Positions 12,109 through 35,777 of a stretch of 35,777 nt of DNA are shown piece by piece. The stretch covers positions 1 to 35,777 of the forward strand of contig JAHLVZ010000019.1 in NCBI GenBank assembly GCA_019058165.1, in the 5' to 3' direction. Both the position numbers and the translations under genes were made by a program. Numbering within the stretch: position 1 is the first letter of the stretch; each line of letters opens with the position of its first letter. Below the pieces are notes generated by a model. That model saw only the letters and a program-made list of their open reading frames with translations. It made no database searches and was not told where the DNA came from. This DNA comes from Candidatus Heimdallarchaeota archaeon (GTDB lineage Archaea; Asgardarchaeota; Heimdallarchaeia; JABLTI01).

Positions 12109-12771
12109 ATGGTGAAGAGTAACGTGCGACGAATTAAAGATGATTTAGGCAAAACAATTGACGAAGCTGATAACTTAGCGAAAATGATTATGATTGAGCA
12201 AGGGATTGATGCTGCCTATGAAATCGACGAACCCATCTCACGAAGCTATGCATTTTGTGACTGCATAATAGCTATTTCTGAATTTGCCAGGGAAACAAGT
12301 AACTTTGAAACTCTAGAAAGAACTCAACCATTACTTGAACAAATTACAAATAAAGGTGCAACAGCAAGAGCTCTCAGTTATCTAGCAGTAGTCCTCTCTG
12401 CACTAAATCACGAAGAAGAAGCTGAAAAAGCATTACTTGATTCAATAAAATACGCTTCAGAAATAGGAGATGACTTTGATCGAAGAGACGCTTTACTTGA
12501 TATTGCCACTTCTGCTGCAGATATGTCATTTTTATTGAATAAACGCAAATTAGTTAATTTAGGATTACAATTTCAGGATCAATTAACAAAAGGACAAAAA
12601 GCATATCTCTATGGTTATCTTTCAACAGTTCTTCCATCCGAAGAAGGCACTCAGTTAATGAGAGAAGCTATGAACATAGTAAGTCAAATAAAAGATCCAA
12701 TTACAAGATCCAAAGTTTCATTAGAACTTGCAACTCTTCTAACAAGCAATCCAAAACCACTTGAAGAATAA
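12109..12771 (+). CDS. TPR/alpha-solenoid-like repeat protein
   Basis: Helical repeats such as ARALSYLAVVLSALNHEEEAEKALLDSIKYA and RRDALLDIATSAAD. Confidence 0.55.
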   Translation: MVKSNVRRIKDDLGKTIDEADNLAKMIMIEQGIDAAYEIDEPISRSYAFCDCIIAISEFARETSNFETLERTQPLLEQITNKGATARALSYLAVVLSALNHEEEAEKALLDSIKYASEIGDDFDRRDALLDIATSAADMSFLLNKRKLVNLGLQFQDQLTKGQKAYLYGYLSTVLPSEEGTQLMREAMNIVSQIKDPITRSKVSLELATLLTSNPKPLEE

Positions 12772-12784
12772 AAAATAAAAATCA

Positions 12785-13486
12785 CTAGAAATAATCGAAG
12801 AATCTCACTACTTTTCTTCCTTCTTTAGGAGTAAAGATAATCTTAAAGAAATTAGCAATGTCATGTTGATCAATTGGTTTTTTTCTCGGTTGAGTTTTTT
12901 GATTTCGAAGTGCCTCTAATACTTTCTCCTCAGTTGCTTCTCCATCAATTTCCACTATACTATAACAAGTACCAATAGCATGTACATGATGCGCATCAGA
13001 ACCACCAACTTCGCTGAAACCATTGTGTTTGAACGCTACTTTAGCCATAATATTTGGAAAATTAAGAAAGATCTTAGCGAATCCATTATAGAATTCCATA
13101 GCATCTGCTTTTAAGGTATAAGCTTTCCAGCCAACACTATTGTGAGACATAAATGGGTGAGGGATAATTGAAACTCCACCCAAATCACTGATTAATTCTA
13201 TAGTTTCTTCCGATGGTCGATTTGGAGGAATTTCCTCGTTAATACCATAAGCGATAATATGTCCATCTGCAGTATCGACTTCAACACCTGCTAAATAGAT
13301 CTTCTCTTTGTCTTTAGCTTTAAACATCTCAGTTACTTTTTTGGCAAAAGCGAAATCATTATGAGCAAGTAAACCCGCACCATCAAGCCCTCTAGAACGT
13401 AAAACACTTGGAATGTGTTGGTATTTAACACGCTCATCTACATGAACGTGAAAATCAATAGCTAAATGCTTCTTCTCTGAGGACAT
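12785..13486 (-). CDS. PHP-domain metal-dependent phosphoesterase
   Basis: AIDFHVHVD, LLAHNDF, IIPHPF, GGSDAHHVHAIG: PHP metal-binding motifs. Confidence 0.8.
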   Translation of the reverse strand: MSSEKKHLAIDFHVHVDERVKYQHIPSVLRSRGLDGAGLLAHNDFAFAKKVTEMFKAKDKEKIYLAGVEVDTADGHIIAYGINEEIPPNRPSEETIELISDLGGVSIIPHPFMSHNSVGWKAYTLKADAMEFYNGFAKIFLNFPNIMAKVAFKHNGFSEVGGSDAHHVHAIGTCYSIVEIDGEATEEKVLEALRNQKTQPRKKPIDQHDIANFFKIIFTPKEGRKVVRFFDYF

Positions 13487-13620
13487 GATGTATCAAATAT
13501 TAAGAATCCCTTTTAGAAATTTTTCACTAATCCCTTGAAATAAAGTCGGATTTTAAGAGGGAAAATCTTTTGAGTAAGCACTGTGTTTTTATTATACCTT
13601 TTAAGGAGGGTACTACACAT

Positions 13621-13818
13621 ATGGTCGTTAAAGTACTAGAAATCATTGGAAGTTCCCCTAAGAGTTGGGAAGATGCAGCAAATACTGCTGTAAAAGAAGC
13701 ATCAGAATCCATTCGTGGAATAAGTGGTGTTGATGTAATTAATTTTACAGCTGTTGTAAAAGACGGAAAAATTGTCAAATACAAAGCTTGTTGTAAAATT
13801 GCTTTTTCAGTAGAATAG
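13621..13818 (+). CDS. Dodecin-family flavin-binding protein
   Basis: MVVKVLEIIGSSPKSWEDAANTAVKEASESIRGISGVDVINFTAVVKDGKIVKYKACCKIAFSVE. ATG 13621 is preceded by AAGGAGGG at 13603-13610, so the track start (13570) is probably too early. Confidence 0.88.
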   Translation: MVVKVLEIIGSSPKSWEDAANTAVKEASESIRGISGVDVINFTAVVKDGKIVKYKACCKIAFSVE

Positions 13819-13838
13819 CTAGTTAACTAGTAAAATTT

Positions 13839-13880
13839 GAAGGGATTCAACCCTTCCTCTACTTTTATTTTTTAAGAATC
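13839..13880 (+). terminator. Hairpin plus T-rich tract downstream of the dodecin gene
   Basis: GAAGGG (13839-13844), loop ATTCAA, CCCTTC (13851-13856), then a pyrimidine/T-rich stretch. Confidence 0.6.
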
Positions 13881-13903
13881 TAATAGATTAGTGTCTAGTT
13901 TAC

Positions 13904-14341
13904 TTAATATTTGTGAATGAATCGTGCTCGTTCAGAAAAGCTAAATTTTTCCATATCTTCCCTTATGAGTAATCTTAACTGATGTTCAAAATCCTCTGTA
14001 ATGACATTTTGTTTCATCAGATCAATTATCTTGCTGGTGTTTACTAGCTCAGGATCTATTTCTAATAGCTTTTTTGTATGGCTTACTTCTAAGGCATTAA
14101 ATTCATCATTTAATTTCGGATTATCTATAAATTGGCATATCAAGTGAGGTTTATCTTTTAATCCATCATCAAAGAGAATAGCAGTTATTTTAGCTGTTAA
14201 TCTAGGATCATTTTTTTGGACGTAATCAGGATTAAGAAGCAATAGATTACCAAGTAATCCATAAAATTCCTTATAATTCTCCCCTATAATTTCCAAACAA
14301 GCACTTTCCAAAAGTGTTTTTTCTTTCAAGTAGTTCCCCAA
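13904..14341 (-). CDS. Hypothetical helical protein
   Basis: 145 aa ORF with coherent composition and no competing ORF. No family recognised. Confidence 0.5.
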   Translation of the reverse strand: MGNYLKEKTLLESACLEIIGENYKEFYGLLGNLLLLNPDYVQKNDPRLTAKITAILFDDGLKDKPHLICQFIDNPKLNDEFNALEVSHTKKLLEIDPELVNTSKIIDLMKQNVITEDFEHQLRLLIREDMEKFSFSERARFIHKY

Positions 14342-14468
14342 TTTTTTCCTTGTAAATAGTATAGTTAATTAATTATTTAAAACTTGATAAATTTTGAAGT
14401 AATGAAACAAATTTTAAGTGAAAACTTTCGCTTATCTCTCTATAGATGTGTTTTTAGTTTGAAGATAT

Positions 14469-16463
14469 TTGGAACACTGGGTGCGACTAGTATTGATTGA
14501 ATTCAAGTTAACGAAGGGTCTAACTCCGAAAGGTGATCAGCCTAAAGCGATCAAAGCAATAGTTGATGGTTTCAAGAAAGGATTAAGTCGTCAAGTACTG
14601 AAAGGAGTTACAGGCTCAGGCAAGACATTCTCAGTTGCAAATATAGTAGAGAAATTACAAGTACCCACACTAGTTTTGTCACCAAATAAAACCCTTGCAG
14701 CTCAACTTTGTTCAGATTATAGACGATACTTTCCTGATAATGCTGTTGAGTACTTTGTGTCATTCTATGATTATTATCAGCCAGAAGCGTACGTTCCCCG
14801 GACAGACACCTATATTGGCAAGGACACTTCCATTAATGAAGAAATTGAAAAGATGAGACATGCTACAACTCACGCTCTTGCTACTAGAAGAGATGTCATC
14901 ATCGTTGCAAGTGTATCAGCTATTTTTGGTTTAGGGCCACCTCAAGCATATCGTACTATCCTTAATCTTGAAAAAAATGTAACTGTAAAAAGAATGCAGA
15001 TTCTCAGAAGATTAGTTGCTTTACAGTATGAGAGAAATGATTTTGAATTGAAAAGAGGAACATTTCGAGCGAAAGGTGATACCATAGAGATTTTTCCACC
15101 TCATTCTGATAAGACAACTATTCGCATTGAAATGTTTGGAGATACTATTGAAAAAATAACAGAAAACGAATATCCAACCGGTAAGAAGCTAAACGAAATA
15201 GAATCGTTTAATGTTTTCCCAGCAACTCATTATATGACTGAAGAAGAAACAATTTCAGGTGTTGCTGATAAAATCAGAAGTGAACTTGATGAGAGAATAA
15301 CCTATTTTGAAGAAAAGAATCTGCTTTTAGAGAAGCAGCGGATTTCTGAAAGAACACGTTATGACCTCGAGTTGTTACAATCAATAGGTTATTGCCCTGG
15401 GATTGAAAACTACTCTATGTATTTAGACAATCGTAATTTCGGAGAACGTCCATTTGTTTTATTAGATCATTTTCCTGAGGATTTCCTTATGGTTATTGAT
15501 GAATCCCATATTACTATACCTCAAGTTGGTGGTATGTATGCGGGAGATCGTTCACGAAAACAAACGTTAGTTAATTATGGTTTCCGACTTCCTTCAGCAC
15601 TTGAGAATCGTCCTCTTCAATTTGAAGAATTTAAAGCTTTTATGAAAAAAGTTGTTTTTACTTCAGCAACTCCAGGACCATATGAGTTCGAACATGGAGA
15701 AGCTATTGTTGAACAAATTATTCGTCCAACTGGACTGGTCGACCCTGAAATTATCATCAAACCTATTGATAATCAAGTTGATGTGCTACTTGATGAAATA
15801 GTAAAACGTGTAAAAATCAAAGAACGAACTTTAGTTACCACATTGACTAAAAGAATGGCTGAAGAGTTAGCTCAATACCTTGCTGAGAAAGGAATTAAAG
15901 CGGAATACTTGCATTCAGAAATTCAAACTATTGATAGAGTATCAATCTTGCGTGATTTGCGCAAAGGAAAATTCGATGTTATTGTTGGAATTAATCTTTT
16001 ACGAGAAGGTTTGGACCTACCGGAAGTATCATTGGTTACTATATTAGATGCAGACAAAGAAGGTTTTCTCAGATCTCAACGTTCCCTCACTCAAATTATC
16101 GGAAGAGCTTCGAGGAACATAAATGGAAGGGTGATTCTTTTTGCTGATAATATGACTAATTCGATCAAGAGAACAGTAGAAGATAATAATCGTAGGAGAA
16201 GAATACAAATACAATACAACAAGAAACACGGCATTACTCCACAAACAATCCAAAAATCATTGGAAGACATAACTGATGGCTTAATAAAATTAGAGAAAAT
16301 TCCTGCAAGGAAAGCCCAAGAATTCAGGCAAATGGAAGAAAGTGATTTAGTTCTCGTTCTTATGGAGTTAAAAGATCAAATGAAAGAAGCAGCACAAAAA
16401 CTTGAGTTTGAAAAAGCAGCTGAAATCCGTGATTTAATCCGTGAATTAGAAGGCGCAAACTGA
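14469..16463 (+). CDS. uvrB: Excinuclease ABC subunit B (UvrB)
   Basis: GVTGSGKT, SFYDYYQPEAYVP, VIDESH, TSATPGPYE, IIRPTGLVDPE, GINLLREGLDLPEVSLVTILDADKEGFLRSQRSL, C-terminal UVR motif. The true start may be TTG at 14493. Confidence 0.95.
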   Translation: MEHWVRLVLIEFKLTKGLTPKGDQPKAIKAIVDGFKKGLSRQVLKGVTGSGKTFSVANIVEKLQVPTLVLSPNKTLAAQLCSDYRRYFPDNAVEYFVSFYDYYQPEAYVPRTDTYIGKDTSINEEIEKMRHATTHALATRRDVIIVASVSAIFGLGPPQAYRTILNLEKNVTVKRMQILRRLVALQYERNDFELKRGTFRAKGDTIEIFPPHSDKTTIRIEMFGDTIEKITENEYPTGKKLNEIESFNVFPATHYMTEEETISGVADKIRSELDERITYFEEKNLLLEKQRISERTRYDLELLQSIGYCPGIENYSMYLDNRNFGERPFVLLDHFPEDFLMVIDESHITIPQVGGMYAGDRSRKQTLVNYGFRLPSALENRPLQFEEFKAFMKKVVFTSATPGPYEFEHGEAIVEQIIRPTGLVDPEIIIKPIDNQVDVLLDEIVKRVKIKERTLVTTLTKRMAEELAQYLAEKGIKAEYLHSEIQTIDRVSILRDLRKGKFDVIVGINLLREGLDLPEVSLVTILDADKEGFLRSQRSLTQIIGRASRNINGRVILFADNMTNSIKRTVEDNNRRRRIQIQYNKKHGITPQTIQKSLEDITDGLIKLEKIPARKAQEFRQMEESDLVLVLMELKDQMKEAAQKLEFEKAAEIRDLIRELEGAN

Positions 16464-28534: not shown

Positions 28535-30841
28535 ATGATTAACAAAAAAATGCATGCTCTTATCTTTTTTAGCTTCTTCTTATTGCCATTGGCATTTGGG
28601 TCATATGCGTCCGCCCAACTACCCGATGCTCCAATAGAATTAAGCACATTCAATCCACTTGTGAAACACGATACAAGTATGGATTTAAACAAAAATAAAG
28701 TTCATGACCATTTAGAGAACATTGTAAGTAATGGTTTTGAGAGTGAATATTATACAACTATCGTTACTTTTGTTACACCTCTAAATGAGAGGATTAGAAA
28801 TAGCATTGAATCACTAGATGGTATCATAGTTAGTTCTTGGTCCGTTATTTATGGTGCTGCTGTTAGAATTAAAGGAACAGAAATTGGTGCCTTAGCAGCG
28901 ATCCCTGGTGTCAATTTTGTGACAGAGAACTATAAAAGTAAAAGAATGCTTAGCACAAGCGTTCCCCAAATAAATGTTCGCCCCTACGTTTGGGATACTT
29001 TAGGTTTTGAAGGTGATGTAAATGATGCTATTGCGATCATAGATACTGGTATTGATGATAGTCATCCAGATTTCACTGGAAGAGTTTCCCATTGGGAAGA
29101 TTTCATCGGACATGATGTTTATACCGCAAGTGATGAATATGCAACTGCCACTGACTGGAATGGTCATGGAACTCATGTTTCAAGTATCGCAGCTGGATCA
29201 GGTACTGGTGCAGAAACTGCAGCAAACGTGGAAATATCAGGAACAATTGGATTACCTCATTTAGATGAATTATATGGCTTAATAAACCATGTAGAAGTGG
29301 AAACTACAGGAACTGTATCTTTCGAAATTTGGTGGGATGAAACAGATGGATCGAATAATCCAGCAGATACCTTATTTCTAGTTATAGATACAGATTTAGA
29401 TGGTTCATTTAGTGATGAAACTCCTATAATTGATGATTACTCTACTGCACCACTAACTCATACAACTGCATCACTTTCCCCAGGGAAATATACATTCATT
29501 ATCGGACCTTACGAAGGCGGTTCACCCTCTTCAGAAATTGGTAGAGCAAAAATTCAATACAAGATTACTCGTCCAGCTTCTTCGGCATCTGATGGGAATA
29601 ATAAATATCGAGGTGTTGCTCCAGGTTGTGAAATCGTTGCTTTGAAGGCTTTAGATGATGTAGGAATTGGTTCTCAAACAGAATTTACTGATGCTTTGGA
29701 TTGGATAGCTGTAAATGGTGATACTTATAATATAGCAGTAGTAAGTATGTCTTTAGGATTTGATTCAGAAATCCCCGCAGTAGATAATGCAATAAACAAT
29801 CTAGTTTCTCTAGGATATGTTTGTGTGGCTGCTGCTGGTAATGGTCATACAGATGGTGATTATGTTTATTCCCCTGGTACAGCAAGCAAAGCAATTACCG
29901 TTGGAGCTATAGACGATGTTGACAAAGTAGCAATTTATTCCTCAAACGGTGACACCGGATCTGGCAAACCTGATATTTTGGCTCCTGGTGGAGCATACAA
30001 AGATCCTATTGGTGCAGATGAAAACACTCACCCAATTGTTGCTGCTGATACAAATGATAAAGACGTTATTGATTTCTTATCAGGATCTCCAACCACTTAT
30101 TGGGAAACTGAACTGAACACAGATGATTACATAGCTTTTCAAGGAACAAGTATGGCTACTCCACATGTTGCTGGATTAGCTGCTTTAATGATACAAGCAA
30201 TGGGCTCAGATTGGACTCATACAGAAGCAAATGTGCTTTTCATAAAGAATATTCTCTGCGGAACCGCAACGGAAGTTCGGTATGGTGAAATATACGATAT
30301 ATATAGTAATTCTCCAACATTGAATAGAGGTGCTAGAGATTTGGTTGAAGGTTTTGGCAAAGTACATGGCGATGCAGCGATTGAAGCATTTCTCTCAACA
30401 TATTCCGCTGGAACTAATGTTACTGAAACACTTAGTAGTTCACCGACTGGCATGCAAAGCTGGGCTCGAAAAGTAGAATTAGTTGAAATGATTGAATTCA
30501 CAGCGGGTATTGAAATGGATGGATCTGCTGATTATGATCTTTATTTGTATGATCCCTCAGTAGATGTAACATCAGCTTCAGCAATTTTGACGAGTAGTAC
30601 CACCGCAACAGCAGGCGTACCCGAAAATATCCTTTATACACCTGCAAACAACAAGACAGTCTATCTTGTAGTTAAACGAGTTGGTGGTTCTGGTAGTTTC
30701 ACTCTTTCAGCAGAGGCAACCAAAACAGGTACACCTACTAATTCCTTTACCTTCCCATTTGGGATACCATTTGCTGCGTGGATCGTTTTAAGTACAATTG
30801 GATTAACCAGTGTGATCCTAATAGCTAGAAAGAGAAAATAA
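28535..30841 (+). CDS. Secreted, membrane-anchored subtilisin-like (S8) serine protease
   Basis: Signal peptide, IIDTGIDDSHPDF (Asp), NGHGTHVSSIAAG (His), AAAGNG (Asn), GTSMATPHVAG (Ser), C-terminal TM anchor followed by RKRK. Confidence 0.93.
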   Translation: MINKKMHALIFFSFFLLPLAFGSYASAQLPDAPIELSTFNPLVKHDTSMDLNKNKVHDHLENIVSNGFESEYYTTIVTFVTPLNERIRNSIESLDGIIVSSWSVIYGAAVRIKGTEIGALAAIPGVNFVTENYKSKRMLSTSVPQINVRPYVWDTLGFEGDVNDAIAIIDTGIDDSHPDFTGRVSHWEDFIGHDVYTASDEYATATDWNGHGTHVSSIAAGSGTGAETAANVEISGTIGLPHLDELYGLINHVEVETTGTVSFEIWWDETDGSNNPADTLFLVIDTDLDGSFSDETPIIDDYSTAPLTHTTASLSPGKYTFIIGPYEGGSPSSEIGRAKIQYKITRPASSASDGNNKYRGVAPGCEIVALKALDDVGIGSQTEFTDALDWIAVNGDTYNIAVVSMSLGFDSEIPAVDNAINNLVSLGYVCVAAAGNGHTDGDYVYSPGTASKAITVGAIDDVDKVAIYSSNGDTGSGKPDILAPGGAYKDPIGADENTHPIVAADTNDKDVIDFLSGSPTTYWETELNTDDYIAFQGTSMATPHVAGLAALMIQAMGSDWTHTEANVLFIKNILCGTATEVRYGEIYDIYSNSPTLNRGARDLVEGFGKVHGDAAIEAFLSTYSAGTNVTETLSSSPTGMQSWARKVELVEMIEFTAGIEMDGSADYDLYLYDPSVDVTSASAILTSSTTATAGVPENILYTPANNKTVYLVVKRVGGSGSFTLSAEATKTGTPTNSFTFPFGIPFAAWIVLSTIGLTSVILIARKRK

Positions 30842-31205: not shown

Positions 31206-34205
31206 ATGAATGGAAAAGCTAAACTATTCCAAAAAATTACCATGGAAAACCTAATGCTTCACGAATTCACGGTAGTGGATTTAGCTAAAGAAGCTATTTC
31301 ATTAATTACAGGAGCAAATGGTTCTGGAAAAACCCAAGTACTGGATGGATTAACCTTATGTATAGGACATATTCCTGCTAGAGCAAAAGCAAAAGGTGTT
31401 GGTAGTTTAGTCGGGAAAAATGATGATTTTTCTAAAATTACTTTAGAAATAGCTAATCCAATTATAAATGGTCGAAGAGCAATTCAAACCTTGGATAAAG
31501 ATCTAAATTCAGTGATAGATTTTGGTACATTTAAGGTCACAGCTAAAATATCCCGGGATGATAGTTCCGTCACATATAGCATTAATAACTCAAGAAGAAT
31601 TATTCGCGGAAGATTGGTTACAAGACGAGATGTTAGAAGAGTCTTTGAATCAATTGGAGTTCGTGGCGATAATAAATTAGCATTTACAGGGGAAGGAACA
31701 GTAGATGATTTTGCATCGAAAAGCCCCAAGAGAAAATTGGAAGTTCTCTTAGAAGTAACAGGACTAAAACAATATCGAGAAGAGGTAATAACCTCTCAAG
31801 AGACACTAAAAGCAAGCATCCAAGAGATTGAACCATTAAAAAGAAAGTATGAAACTGAAAGCAAATTGCTAAACCTATGGAACGATGCAATGAAGATTCT
31901 AAATCAAAAGAAGAAACTAATGATAATGAAAACAAAATTGGAAACAGAACTTGCTTGGTCATCTGTGACTCGATTAGAGAAACAATTAGAGGGGCTAAAT
32001 AAGCAGCGACTAACAATTGTAAAGCAAAAAAGCGAGAATGAACAAGCGATAAGCAAAAAGAAATCTGAAATTGATTTAGCAAATAATAGATTACAAGTCT
32101 TGAAAGAAGAATTAGAATTAGTAGAAGAACAAGAGAGAATAAAGAATAGAAAGTTAATCACGTTAGAAGCTCAAATCCAAAACGATCAAGAAAATATAGG
32201 GAATTTTGGGAAAGAGATTGATCGATATAACGAACAAAAAAGTGAAATGGAAAAAATCATTGCCACAAAGAATCTAAGTGAAAAAGATAGAAAACTCCAA
32301 GACAGACAAGAAGCTCTGATAATAAAAACAAAAAAATTATCCATGATTCAAGAAAAATACTCCAAGGCAGATAAAGAACTCCTCCTTCACAGAAGAAGGA
32401 TAATTGTTGAACCACATTACGACTCCTTTTCTTCAGATGAAGAAACATATTCCGGACAACGCTTAACAAAGTTTGAAGAAGACCTAACAAATTCTGCGAA
32501 AATTTTCCATCATAAAATTAGAAAACAATCCATGGATAAAGAAATCATTGGACCAATAATTTCCTTAATTGAAATTAAGGAGGGAAAGGAAACTTGGGGA
32601 AATGCAGTTAAAAATCTCGTTGGTCGCAATCTTTATGCCTTTTTAGCTAAAACAGATGAGGCATATAGATTTGCAAAGAGATTGTATGATGAAACATGGC
32701 CTCGATGGAAACCCCCAATTTCAGTATACAAAGTATCTGCAGAAGATGCCAAAAAAGCATCTGAAACTATCAAAAAACCTCCATACAAAGAAGTTTATGA
32801 TATTGCCAGTAATCTCCTATCAGGTAATCCTCATGCATTAGGCTTTCTGAAAAGAGTAGTAAAAGCTGGTGTTGCTGAGGATAAATATGATCCAAATGCT
32901 CTAACAAACATCGCAAGAGATTCCCGCATTAATATCCTAACAAAATCAGGAAAAAGCTACTATTTATCTCATGGAGGATTCGGGAGACCACCTGCACCTA
33001 TGAAGAATGCTTTTGGTTGGAAGATAAAGGCATCAGAAGGAAAGCAATTCACAAACATAAATAATGAAAGGAAAACACGAGTTACAATCGCACGATTAGA
33101 AAAAGAAACCCGAGATCTAAAAATCGATGAGATAAAAACCCTGAAAGAAATAACAAAAATGCATCAAGAAATTCAAGCATTAGGAATGCCTGATGAAAAA
33201 ATCTTAGGTAAAATTGAAACCATAAATGAAATCATCGCTACAATCGAGGCGAAAACACAGGAATATAAAATACATCGGAATGGATTGAAACTAGAACTCA
33301 ATGAAGCTGAAGATGATTTTGCTACTTATTCCATAAAAAAGAATGAAGTAAAAAGAAATATTGAGGATATTAAAGAAACAATCGAATTGCTCCGAATAGA
33401 ATCTCATAGTTTAGTTGAGAAATCTACTCGGCTTCTCACACTAGAGTTAAACTTTGATTCTGAATATGAAACTCATTTACAAGAAAAGAATGAAAGAGAG
33501 GAACGAGCAAGGCAGAAAGGAGAACGACCAGAAGAAATTAGAAATTATTCTGAAATAAGGGATGAGTTAAACCGAATTGAAGGGCATTTAGATTCAATTG
33601 GAATCAGTAATGTAGATGAAGATAAAATAGATGCTCAAAAAGTGAAAGTGGAATCTTTGAAAATTTATATGGTTGAAAGAGAGGAACATATCACTAATTT
33701 ACGAGCAGATTTAGAAGCTAGATTAGCATTTTGGAATGGGGAACTACAAGAAGTTATTACAAATATTACACGTTCAATGAAACTCCTTTTGGGAGGAATT
33801 TTTGAGAAAATAAGATTGAAAGTAACTAACATCAATAAACCAGAAGATGCAGGATTATACATAGAAGCGATCACTAAAGGGAAAGCTTATCGTGATTTTC
33901 GAGAACTAAGCGGAGGAGAAAAAGTCCTAGCAATTGAAGGACTCATTTTAGCAATGCATACTCTAACGGATTCACCAATCCATGCTATTGATGAATTCAC
34001 ACAGAGATTAGATGAGAAAAATAAAGCATTGGCTTTCAGTATTGCAGTAAGAACACAAAAACTAGCTGGAGAAAATTCTCGTTTTGTTCCTCAGTTTATT
34101 CTTCTTTGTCCTGATGCTCTAGACGTTGATGTATCTGATAATATCAATCATATGGTTGTTTCTGAGATGAAGGTGGTAAAAGCTGAACATGTTAGAAGAC
34201 AATAA
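31206..34205 (+). CDS. SMC-family ATPase with SMC5/6-like features
   Basis: Walker A GANGSGKT; head, coiled coil, hinge (GPIISLIEIKEGKETWGNAVKNLVGRNLYAFLA), coiled coil; signature LSGGEKVLAIEGLILAM; Walker B region IHAIDEFTQRLDEKNKALAF. Confidence 0.9.
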   Translation: MNGKAKLFQKITMENLMLHEFTVVDLAKEAISLITGANGSGKTQVLDGLTLCIGHIPARAKAKGVGSLVGKNDDFSKITLEIANPIINGRRAIQTLDKDLNSVIDFGTFKVTAKISRDDSSVTYSINNSRRIIRGRLVTRRDVRRVFESIGVRGDNKLAFTGEGTVDDFASKSPKRKLEVLLEVTGLKQYREEVITSQETLKASIQEIEPLKRKYETESKLLNLWNDAMKILNQKKKLMIMKTKLETELAWSSVTRLEKQLEGLNKQRLTIVKQKSENEQAISKKKSEIDLANNRLQVLKEELELVEEQERIKNRKLITLEAQIQNDQENIGNFGKEIDRYNEQKSEMEKIIATKNLSEKDRKLQDRQEALIIKTKKLSMIQEKYSKADKELLLHRRRIIVEPHYDSFSSDEETYSGQRLTKFEEDLTNSAKIFHHKIRKQSMDKEIIGPIISLIEIKEGKETWGNAVKNLVGRNLYAFLAKTDEAYRFAKRLYDETWPRWKPPISVYKVSAEDAKKASETIKKPPYKEVYDIASNLLSGNPHALGFLKRVVKAGVAEDKYDPNALTNIARDSRINILTKSGKSYYLSHGGFGRPPAPMKNAFGWKIKASEGKQFTNINNERKTRVTIARLEKETRDLKIDEIKTLKEITKMHQEIQALGMPDEKILGKIETINEIIATIEAKTQEYKIHRNGLKLELNEAEDDFATYSIKKNEVKRNIEDIKETIELLRIESHSLVEKSTRLLTLELNFDSEYETHLQEKNEREERARQKGERPEEIRNYSEIRDELNRIEGHLDSIGISNVDEDKIDAQKVKVESLKIYMVEREEHITNLRADLEARLAFWNGELQEVITNITRSMKLLLGGIFEKIRLKVTNINKPEDAGLYIEAITKGKAYRDFRELSGGEKVLAIEGLILAMHTLTDSPIHAIDEFTQRLDEKNKALAFSIAVRTQKLAGENSRFVPQFILLCPDALDVDVSDNINHMVVSEMKVVKAEHVRRQ

Positions 34206-35052
34206 TGATATTGAAGTAGAAATATCCATTTCGGAATCAACAAATAAAGAAGACAGTGAGAAATCTTCTAACAAATCAAAACCAAATAATAATCCGGAAA
34301 AACCGAAAAAGAGTTCAAAGAAAAAGCATGCTAGTGATGGGGTTGAGAAATTATTGTGGAGTGTCGCAAAGAAATACAAGTCTTTGTTAGACAAAGGAAC
34401 TGTTCCGCAAATAGCTGAAAGCGAAGAAGATCGAATAGAAGTATCTGACGCATACTTGAACATTTCTAGTAATAGACACAGACAATTAGATGCTCGAGTG
34501 TACCAATCTCTCACTAAGATGCAAAGAACTAGAGATACTAAAGTAGCTTTAGAGGGAACTACAGAAAGAGATCGTTTACGTATGATTGCATGGGAAGTGA
34601 AGATACGCACTAAAGCCATTATGTTTATGCCCGGAGATAATACACTGGACATGGATATGTTTAATCTACATGAAGTTGGTGGAGTACAGATCATTGAAGG
34701 TGACGATAAAGAACTTCTTGTTGAAGATGAAATTCTAGAGGGAAAAGGCATAGCGATCATGGAATCGCTACCATTACGCAAATTAACGAAAGAACAAAAG
34801 GAATCTTTGAAAAAAGAATTCCTGAAAAAATTTGGTGGAAAACAATTCAAAATTTCTGATCTTGAAAGCAAAATCGACAGTATTTCTGCTGACTTGATAT
34901 CACTCTTAGTAAGAGAAAAGCAAATAATGCTTTTGCGAACAGGAAAAGATTCACTTGAAATTATTCCTATGGAAACTGCTTCTGAGAGGATAGATGAGCT
35001 TGATCTGGTAAATCAATCAATTGTGATTACTCCTAAAAAAACAAGAAAATAA
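34189..35052 (+). CDS. Candidate kleisin subunit of the SMC complex
   Basis: Start overlaps the end of the SMC gene by 17 nt. Acidic/Lys-rich N-terminus, helical middle, and C-terminal winged-helix-like segment (FKISDLESKIDSISADLISLLVREKQIMLLRTGKDSLEIIP). Confidence 0.55.
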   Translation: MLEDNNDIEVEISISESTNKEDSEKSSNKSKPNNNPEKPKKSSKKKHASDGVEKLLWSVAKKYKSLLDKGTVPQIAESEEDRIEVSDAYLNISSNRHRQLDARVYQSLTKMQRTRDTKVALEGTTERDRLRMIAWEVKIRTKAIMFMPGDNTLDMDMFNLHEVGGVQIIEGDDKELLVEDEILEGKGIAIMESLPLRKLTKEQKESLKKEFLKKFGGKQFKISDLESKIDSISADLISLLVREKQIMLLRTGKDSLEIIPMETASERIDELDLVNQSIVITPKKTRK

Positions 35053-35073
35053 TGATTAATAGAAGGTTGAAAA

Positions 35074-35700
35074 ATGATTGAAAATCAATCAAATAGTGAT
35101 GAAGAACAAGTTGAAAAAAGTTCTATTAATAATGTAAGAGAAAAATTAGAGGAGGACTTCGGTGAGATCGACCCTCAATTATTCCTTGCTTTAACTTCCA
35201 GACGACGTATGGAAAATGACTCATTGGCTTTTGGAGTATCTAAAAGACACTTAAGGAATAAAACAGGTTTAACCCTTCTTGAACTTGAGACTTTGTTAGA
35301 AGATTTTGGAAGAAATGTGAAGCGACTTGGCTTGGAATTAATTTCGTATGTAGTTGATAATGAAGTTTGGTATTGCTTACGATCTATCTATGTTGTTCCA
35401 AACGAATTGTCATTAGATGAACAAGCTGTTCTCGGGACAATAATTTATCTAATAGAGAAAACTACCGATCATCGAAGACGAGAGGAGATACCTATTACCT
35501 CAACCATCCTTTTCGACCGTTTAGTAAAACGAGGTTATTATTCAGAATACTCCTTAACAAGAATTTTGCGAACCTTAGTTACTGCGGGTTATATTAAGAG
35601 AGGTGGGAACAAGATACGATACGGAGCTAGAACGAAAATAGAGATCGCATCTGAGAGAAGAAAGGAAATCGCCGATAGAACTGAGGGAATGTTGCTCTAA
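35074..35700 (+). CDS. Candidate KITE-type (ScpB / Nse1-Nse3 MAGE-like) tandem winged-helix protein
   Basis: Two winged-helix-like modules; LGLELISYVVDNEVWYCLRS..LSLDEQAVLGTIIYLIEK..ILFDRLVKRGYYSEYSLTRILRTLVTAGYIKR. Third gene of the SMC unit. Confidence 0.6.
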   Translation: MIENQSNSDEEQVEKSSINNVREKLEEDFGEIDPQLFLALTSRRRMENDSLAFGVSKRHLRNKTGLTLLELETLLEDFGRNVKRLGLELISYVVDNEVWYCLRSIYVVPNELSLDEQAVLGTIIYLIEKTTDHRRREEIPITSTILFDRLVKRGYYSEYSLTRILRTLVTAGYIKRGGNKIRYGARTKIEIASERRKEIADRTEGMLL

Positions 35701-35724: not shown

Positions 35725-35777
35725 ATGGCTGTAATAACAACTTCAACAGTATCAATTCGTTGCGCAGGACATAATGG
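35725..35777 (+). CDS. 5' fragment of a further ORF, truncated by the window
   Basis: ATG after a purine-rich leader 24 nt downstream of the previous stop: MAVITTSTVSIRCAGHN... Confidence 0.4.
   Translation, partial: MAVITTSTVSIRCAGHN

Follow-up and report, generated by a model that had tools for sequence, protein, structure and literature searches.

A probable Smc5/6-type SMC operon with kleisin-like, KITE and RING-like partner genes in Asgard archaea

To our knowledge, Smc5/6 is the least understood of the eukaryotic structural maintenance of chromosomes (SMC) complexes and the only one that has both KITE subunits and ubiquitin/SUMO ligase activity. It comprises a heterodimer of Smc5 and Smc6 together with Nse1 to Nse4, among which Nse1 and Nse3 are two different KITE proteins. 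Nse1 holds its KITE module and a variant RING in one chain, with the RING beside the second winged helix; together with Ubc13/Mms2 it acts as a ubiquitin ligase (PMC8750328). SMC5/6-related SMCs were described in archaea in 2021 (Yoshinaga and Inagaki 2021, as cited in PMC9389158); the citing paper presents them as SMC-type proteins branching with SMC5/6 and mentions neither a kleisin nor an operon. The SMC-kleisin-KITE plan is also that of Smc-ScpAB (archaeal Smc-ScpA) and of the Wadjet JetABCD and MukBEF/MksBEF operons. We describe here an operon at the end of contig JAHLVZ010000019.1 of a Candidatus Heimdallarchaeota archaeon (assembly GCA_019058165.1; its 35,777 nucleotides are referred to as the window), a member of the Asgard archaea, the archaeal group nearest to eukaryotes. 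The operon consists of four genes, encoding in order an SMC, a kleisin-like protein (P2), a KITE protein (P3) and a RING-like protein (P4), and we consider it highly probable that it encodes an SMC complex of Smc5/6 type.

31206 to 34205, + strand: SMC open reading frame (ORF), 999 amino acids (aa), with a Pfam SMC_N match; best profile matches SMC6, then SMC5; placed with SMC5/6 in the tree
34189 to 35052, + strand: P2 ORF, 287 aa, kleisin-like with a predicted Nse4-type fold (AlphaFold2 [AF2] model and Foldseek)
35074 to 35700, + strand: P3 ORF, 208 aa, predicted KITE-type tandem winged-helix protein (AF2 model with a predicted local distance difference test score [pLDDT] of 83, and Foldseek)
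35725 to 35777, + strand: start of P4, a RING/FYVE-like zinc protein; first 17 codons, MAVITTSTVSIRCAGHN, then the contig end

The SMC and P2 ORFs overlap by 17 nucleotides and a 21-nucleotide gap separates P2 from P3, all on the + strand. The original prediction, made from the letters of the window, had described these three ORFs with the same overlap and gap, and its coordinates are borne out; its operon stands as far as the three genes go but is not complete with them, for it overlooked the RING-like gene that begins at 35725. The last 53 bases of the window, whose end is the contig end, hold the first 17 codons of this gene, and its reading frame resumes on another contig of the same genome (C85) about 8 codons further on, with the gap judged from a close relative (L001).

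The SMC query matches 41 of the 60 genomes of the class; in a few, the match is a weak one to a different SMC. A profile search recovered the family at E ≤ 1e-30 in 51 of 231 Asgard genomes, four of which hold distant single-SMC forms. Profiles of the four proteins were used to check 40 fetched loci, which come from genomes of the Heimdall group and of other Asgard archaea. SMC, P2 and P3 are ordered on one strand in 39 of them (the exception is L077), bearing out the synteny check that had been proposed, and P4 comes next in all 36 loci where the DNA extends far enough. Because order and strand are kept in 39 of 40 homologous loci, the arrangement is not due to chance; the genes are kept together across Asgard families. 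Neighboring genes of the operon often overlap by a few bases through their stop and start codons, which suggests translational coupling. The SMC family has a single match in the host genome, and each operon holds one SMC gene.

The identity of the SMC subunit was established from its motifs, from profile searches and from a tree. The following segments could be placed in the protein:

31311 to 31334, + strand: Walker A motif GANGSGKT (residues 36 to 43), kept in 18 aligned homologs
32541 to 33005, + strand: approximate hinge region (residues ~446 to 600); the SMC6 alignment spans it, and it has no CxxC
33906 to 33995, + strand: ABC signature LSGGE (residues 901 to 905) to Walker B IDEFTQ (DE at 929 and 930), aligned with DEINQ of SMC5 and DEFDV of SMC6

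The CxxC zinc hook, a feature of Rad50 and of the ASRP proteins ClsN and Sph, was found nowhere in the 999 aa. Against the PDB, the SMC profile recovered yeast SMC6 at 3.7e-49, in a near end-to-end alignment that includes the hinge, followed by human SMC6 (1.2e-40), SMC4 and SMC5. A profile of the C-terminal head alone placed human SMC5 at the top (6.1e-21); yeast SMC5 and human SMC6 followed, and SMC1A ranked little lower. The head of the genome's canonical SMC, used as a control, ranked archaeal/bacterial Smc and SMC1-4 high (SMC1-4 at 1e-19 to 1e-31) and SMC5 at only about 1e-5. With SMC5/SMC6 the family has in common the sequence around Walker B, DEFTQ, and a QF-L-P motif after it. A tree rooted with Rad50 groups the family with SMC5 and SMC6 at a support of 96/90 (96/92 without long branches), and the approximately unbiased (AU) test rejects its grouping with canonical SMC (p-AU 0.001). 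By profile ranking and phylogeny, the SMC subunit is thus a member of the SMC5/6 clade and not of the canonical SMC/SMC1-4 clade. In the first tree the archaeal family was nested inside the eukaryotic SMC5/SMC6 split; this nesting was not significant (p-AU 0.265 for an SMC5+SMC6 clade), and we therefore do not claim it.

These results bear directly on whether the operon might instead encode a divergent canonical archaeal Smc-ScpA(B) condensin whose likeness to Smc5/6 is convergent or a long-branch effect. Smc-ScpAB, too, has KITE and kleisin subunits, canonical SMC models of NCBIfam match the protein, if far below their cut-offs, and the tree does contain long branches. However, the grouping is stable once the long rows are removed, the AU test speaks against a canonical placement, the profile ranking is the reverse of that of canonical SMC, and the genome also encodes a canonical SMC of its own, immediately followed by a kleisin-like gene of 300 aa (ScpA by eye). 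Smc-ScpAB and Smc-ScpA further differ from the Asgard operon in the clade of their SMC and in the RING-like fourth gene of the latter. We regard the condensin explanation as very improbable.

The AF2 model of P2 (pLDDT 65) consists of an N-terminal helical domain, a disordered linker and a C-terminal winged helix:

34318 to 34608, + strand: predicted N-terminal helical domain of P2 (residues 44 to 140), with invariant E79, D81, R82, D101 and R115
34789 to 34992, + strand: predicted C-terminal winged helix of P2 (residues 201 to 268, AF2 model)

Its top Foldseek match is Nse4 (7qcd_F; E = 2.6e-3). Neither Pfam nor NCBIfam returned anything above cut-off for P2 alone, and a scan with all homologs gave nothing useful. 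Next to a distant SMC5/6-like gene of the Asgard archaea (L119, G088), the protein in the kleisin position independently matches Pfam Nse4_C at E = 0.0013, below cut-off. P2 has the architecture of a kleisin, probably of Nse4 type; the Nse4 match is weak when taken alone and agrees with this architecture. P3 is, judged from its AF2 tandem winged-helix model, a KITE protein with a fold closest to that of Nse1 (top Foldseek match 7dg2_A, 5.7e-4); a chain of the MAGE-G1/NSE1 complex, ScpB, MukE and JetABC chains are also among its matches. Pfam and NCBIfam scans of P3 alone found nothing above cut-off, and the all-homolog scan returned sub-threshold Nse1, MAGE, MksE and ScpB hits mixed with other winged-helix families. 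The original prediction had given the SMC SMC5-type features, the second protein a winged-helix-like C terminus and the third a tandem winged-helix fold, all of which agree with the profiles, tree and models above; its comparison of the third protein with Nse3/MAGE does not hold, the closest fold being Nse1. It had also proposed the phylogeny of SMC heads as a check and named as refuting a head that groups with canonical archaeal SMC or Rad50, next to partners of neither kleisin nor KITE fold; the head groups with neither, and the partners show kleisin and KITE folds in their models. Its archaeal Smc5/6 relative is therefore supported, with an Nse1-like KITE, a fourth gene and probable homodimers as corrections.

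The P4 family has eight conserved Cys/His ligands (C-x2-C/H, C-x2-C, C-x2-C, C, H), and its PDB matches are mostly RING E3s, of which RNF4 is the best (3.7e-4). The operon resembles eukaryotic Smc5/6 in the clade of its SMC head, a KITE nearest to Nse1 and a kleisin nearest to Nse4; the RING-like domain beside the KITE may be a further likeness, here as a separate adjoining chain with cross-brace ligands, another zinc spacing, RING-type PDB matches and weak Pfam scores. Neither the SUMO ligase Nse2 nor Nse5/6 was seen in the operon, with no genome-wide search made for Nse2.

In the host genus, P4 is followed by genes for proteins of the JAMM, ThiF/E1, ubiquitin-like and E2-like types and for a protein of ~105 aa. 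P4 and the genes of this cassette follow immediately on the SMC operon, one after another, at:

12530 to 16168 of locus L004
7984 to 11590 of locus L065
locus L197, on contig C85 of the genome of the window

The JAB and ThiF domains score above the Pfam cut-offs and the E2 falls below (9.6e-4), with a candidate catalytic cysteine that is invariant in six homologs; the ubiquitin-like protein is assigned, provisionally, by size, context and conservation. In family f11, the SMC operon has a divergent neighboring cassette that encodes a ubiquitin-like protein, an E2, a paralog of P4 and a transglutaminase-like protein (L110 to L115). The Caldiarchaeum ubiquitin operon likewise unites a ubiquitin-like protein, E1, E2, Rpn11/JAMM and a small RING protein in an archaeon (PMC5654768, PMC6043591); the Asgard cassette differs in following an SMC operon and in its divergent ubiquitin-like protein, which ends in VG or in a short tail after VG.

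We infer E3 activity for P4 and tentatively propose that the operon represents an ancestral-type Smc5/6: KITE and RING, joined in Nse1, would still be encoded by two genes, SMC and KITE would form homodimers and the complex would be linked to ubiquitin-like conjugation; we give this slightly less than an even chance. If true, an SMC motor would have been coupled to protein tagging before eukaryotes arose. A competing proposal accepts the SMC-kleisin-KITE core but holds P4 to be a zinc subunit of purely structural function, without ligase activity, and the cassette to be unrelated to its neighbor. P4 is kept in families that have no cassette, its RING scores are weak, and early fission yeast work assigned a structural role to the Nse1 RING (PMC8750328). 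On the other hand, the cassette adjoins the operon in two Asgard groups with differing orientations, a P4 paralog occurs within the f11 cassette, and the cassette E2, found in 19 of the 231 Asgard genomes (families f1, f7 and f11), is accompanied by the SMC operon in 19 of 19; general ubiquitin E2s are present in all 15 genomes checked. The cassette E2 covers three lineages only, and the f7 contigs are too short for its linkage to the operon to be visible. A purely structural P4 is accordingly a serious contender, falling just below the balance of probability.

Several observations weigh against reading the operon as encoding an Smc5/6-type complex. The tree rests on ~228 columns of the C-terminal head and five eukaryotic sequences taken from PDB alignments. 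The likeness of P2 to Nse4 is weak in both Foldseek E value and model confidence, and the P2 profile found no sequence-level match in yeast Nse4 (a query differing by one residue from 7tve_G); TM-scores of the P3 matches reach just 0.48. The zinc pattern of P4 also fits FYVE-type cross-brace fingers, with FYVE/IBR-like and RING Pfam models both weak. Families f2, f3 and f4 lack the cassette E2 though they keep P4, so coupling to the cassette is not general; general ubiquitin E2s are present in them. Lastly, SMC and KITE are each encoded by a single gene per operon, which sets it apart from Smc5/6. Homodimers of both are therefore likely from the gene content, in contrast to the eukaryotic heterodimers, and since the SMC and KITE heterodimer features were not found, we do not class the operon as a eukaryotic-type Smc5/6 complex.

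We infer that SMC, P2, P3 and P4 assemble into one complex that, by analogy, would act like a homomeric Smc5/6-type DNA motor. Two SMC copies would pair at the hinge; the kleisin would contact one SMC neck through its N-terminal helical domain and the other head through its C-terminal winged helix, so that a ring is closed, and its linker would carry a KITE dimer. DNA capture, and probably loop extrusion, would be powered by the binding and hydrolysis of ATP. P4 would sit on the KITE/kleisin module, as the Nse1 RING does within one chain, and recruit an E2, which would lead to tagging of chromatin-bound targets or of the complex itself; the host genus and two further families would draw this tag from the dedicated ubiquitin-like protein and E2.

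The role of such a complex is most likely housekeeping chromosome maintenance and repair, not mobile defense. An SMC-based anti-plasmid or antiviral system of Wadjet/Lamassu type, with the ubiquitin-like cassette as a tagging effector, would share its core with JetABC, chains of which are among the P3 fold matches, and the defense library yielded weak LmuB/JetC matches; the Asgard SMC is much closer to SMC5/6 than to MukB or JetC. Cassettes of ubiquitin-like protein, E1, E2 and JAMM are, moreover, similar to bacterial ubiquitin-like defense operons. Human Smc5/6 itself restricts viruses (PMC10586767). Nevertheless, no JetD Toprim nuclease, as in Wadjet, is encoded in the operon at the loci inspected, and the operon is essentially single copy with the same order throughout whole families, making a defense system unlikely. 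A further point against it comes from family f3, where the SMC5/6-type gene is apparently the sole SMC. In four of its genomes (G004, a single contig, G021, G002 and G025) that gene is the only full-length SMC-like gene among SMC_N matches, apart from one unassigned 792-codon frame in G002, and searches for canonical SMC found nothing in G004 and G021. The loci concerned include L050 and L063. Because the f3 genomes are 88 to 95% complete, loss of canonical SMC, leaving the SMC5/6-type gene as the only one, is likely from these searches and not proven; it suggests that chromosome organization by this SMC alone is possible. A ~1,030-aa gene upstream in f3 might have been a second SMC, but it reads as a secreted-type protein and was discounted.

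That SMC5/6-related proteins had been discussed for archaea, as the original prediction noted, agrees with PMC9389158, and the operon SMC, judged from that description, very probably belongs to the reported group. This leaves only the partner gene set and the ubiquitin-like linkage as candidates for novelty. Both appear new, no description of the partner genes having been found in literature on Asgard with kleisin, SMC5 or Nse1; as coverage of that literature was incomplete, this is provisional. A compact archaeal system that has a kleisin, a KITE and a RING-like partner of its own offers a direct comparison for the origin of Smc5/6 that is testable in an archaeon, and it bears on whether the ligase link is ancestral and on how a simple homomeric version works.

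Other SMC gene sets were seen in Asgard genomes. A different type of SMC has an AAA ATPase gene directly upstream (L119, 5824 to 12626; L118, 4048 to 8107; L068); in L119 this SMC is followed by the Nse4_C-matching protein (0.0013) and then two more genes. Three-gene sets of an SMC, a ~235-aa and a ~165- to 195-aa protein (L121, 5744 to 10197; L071, 2 to 3422) are possibly other SMC-kleisin-KITE systems by their gene content, and the third protein of the L071 set has a weak ScpB match. Elsewhere in the window, a large subtilase is encoded upstream of the SMC operon (28535 to 30841), with a gene of similar size upstream in most loci of the host genus, and UvrB, of bacterial-type excision repair, is encoded at 14469 to 16463.

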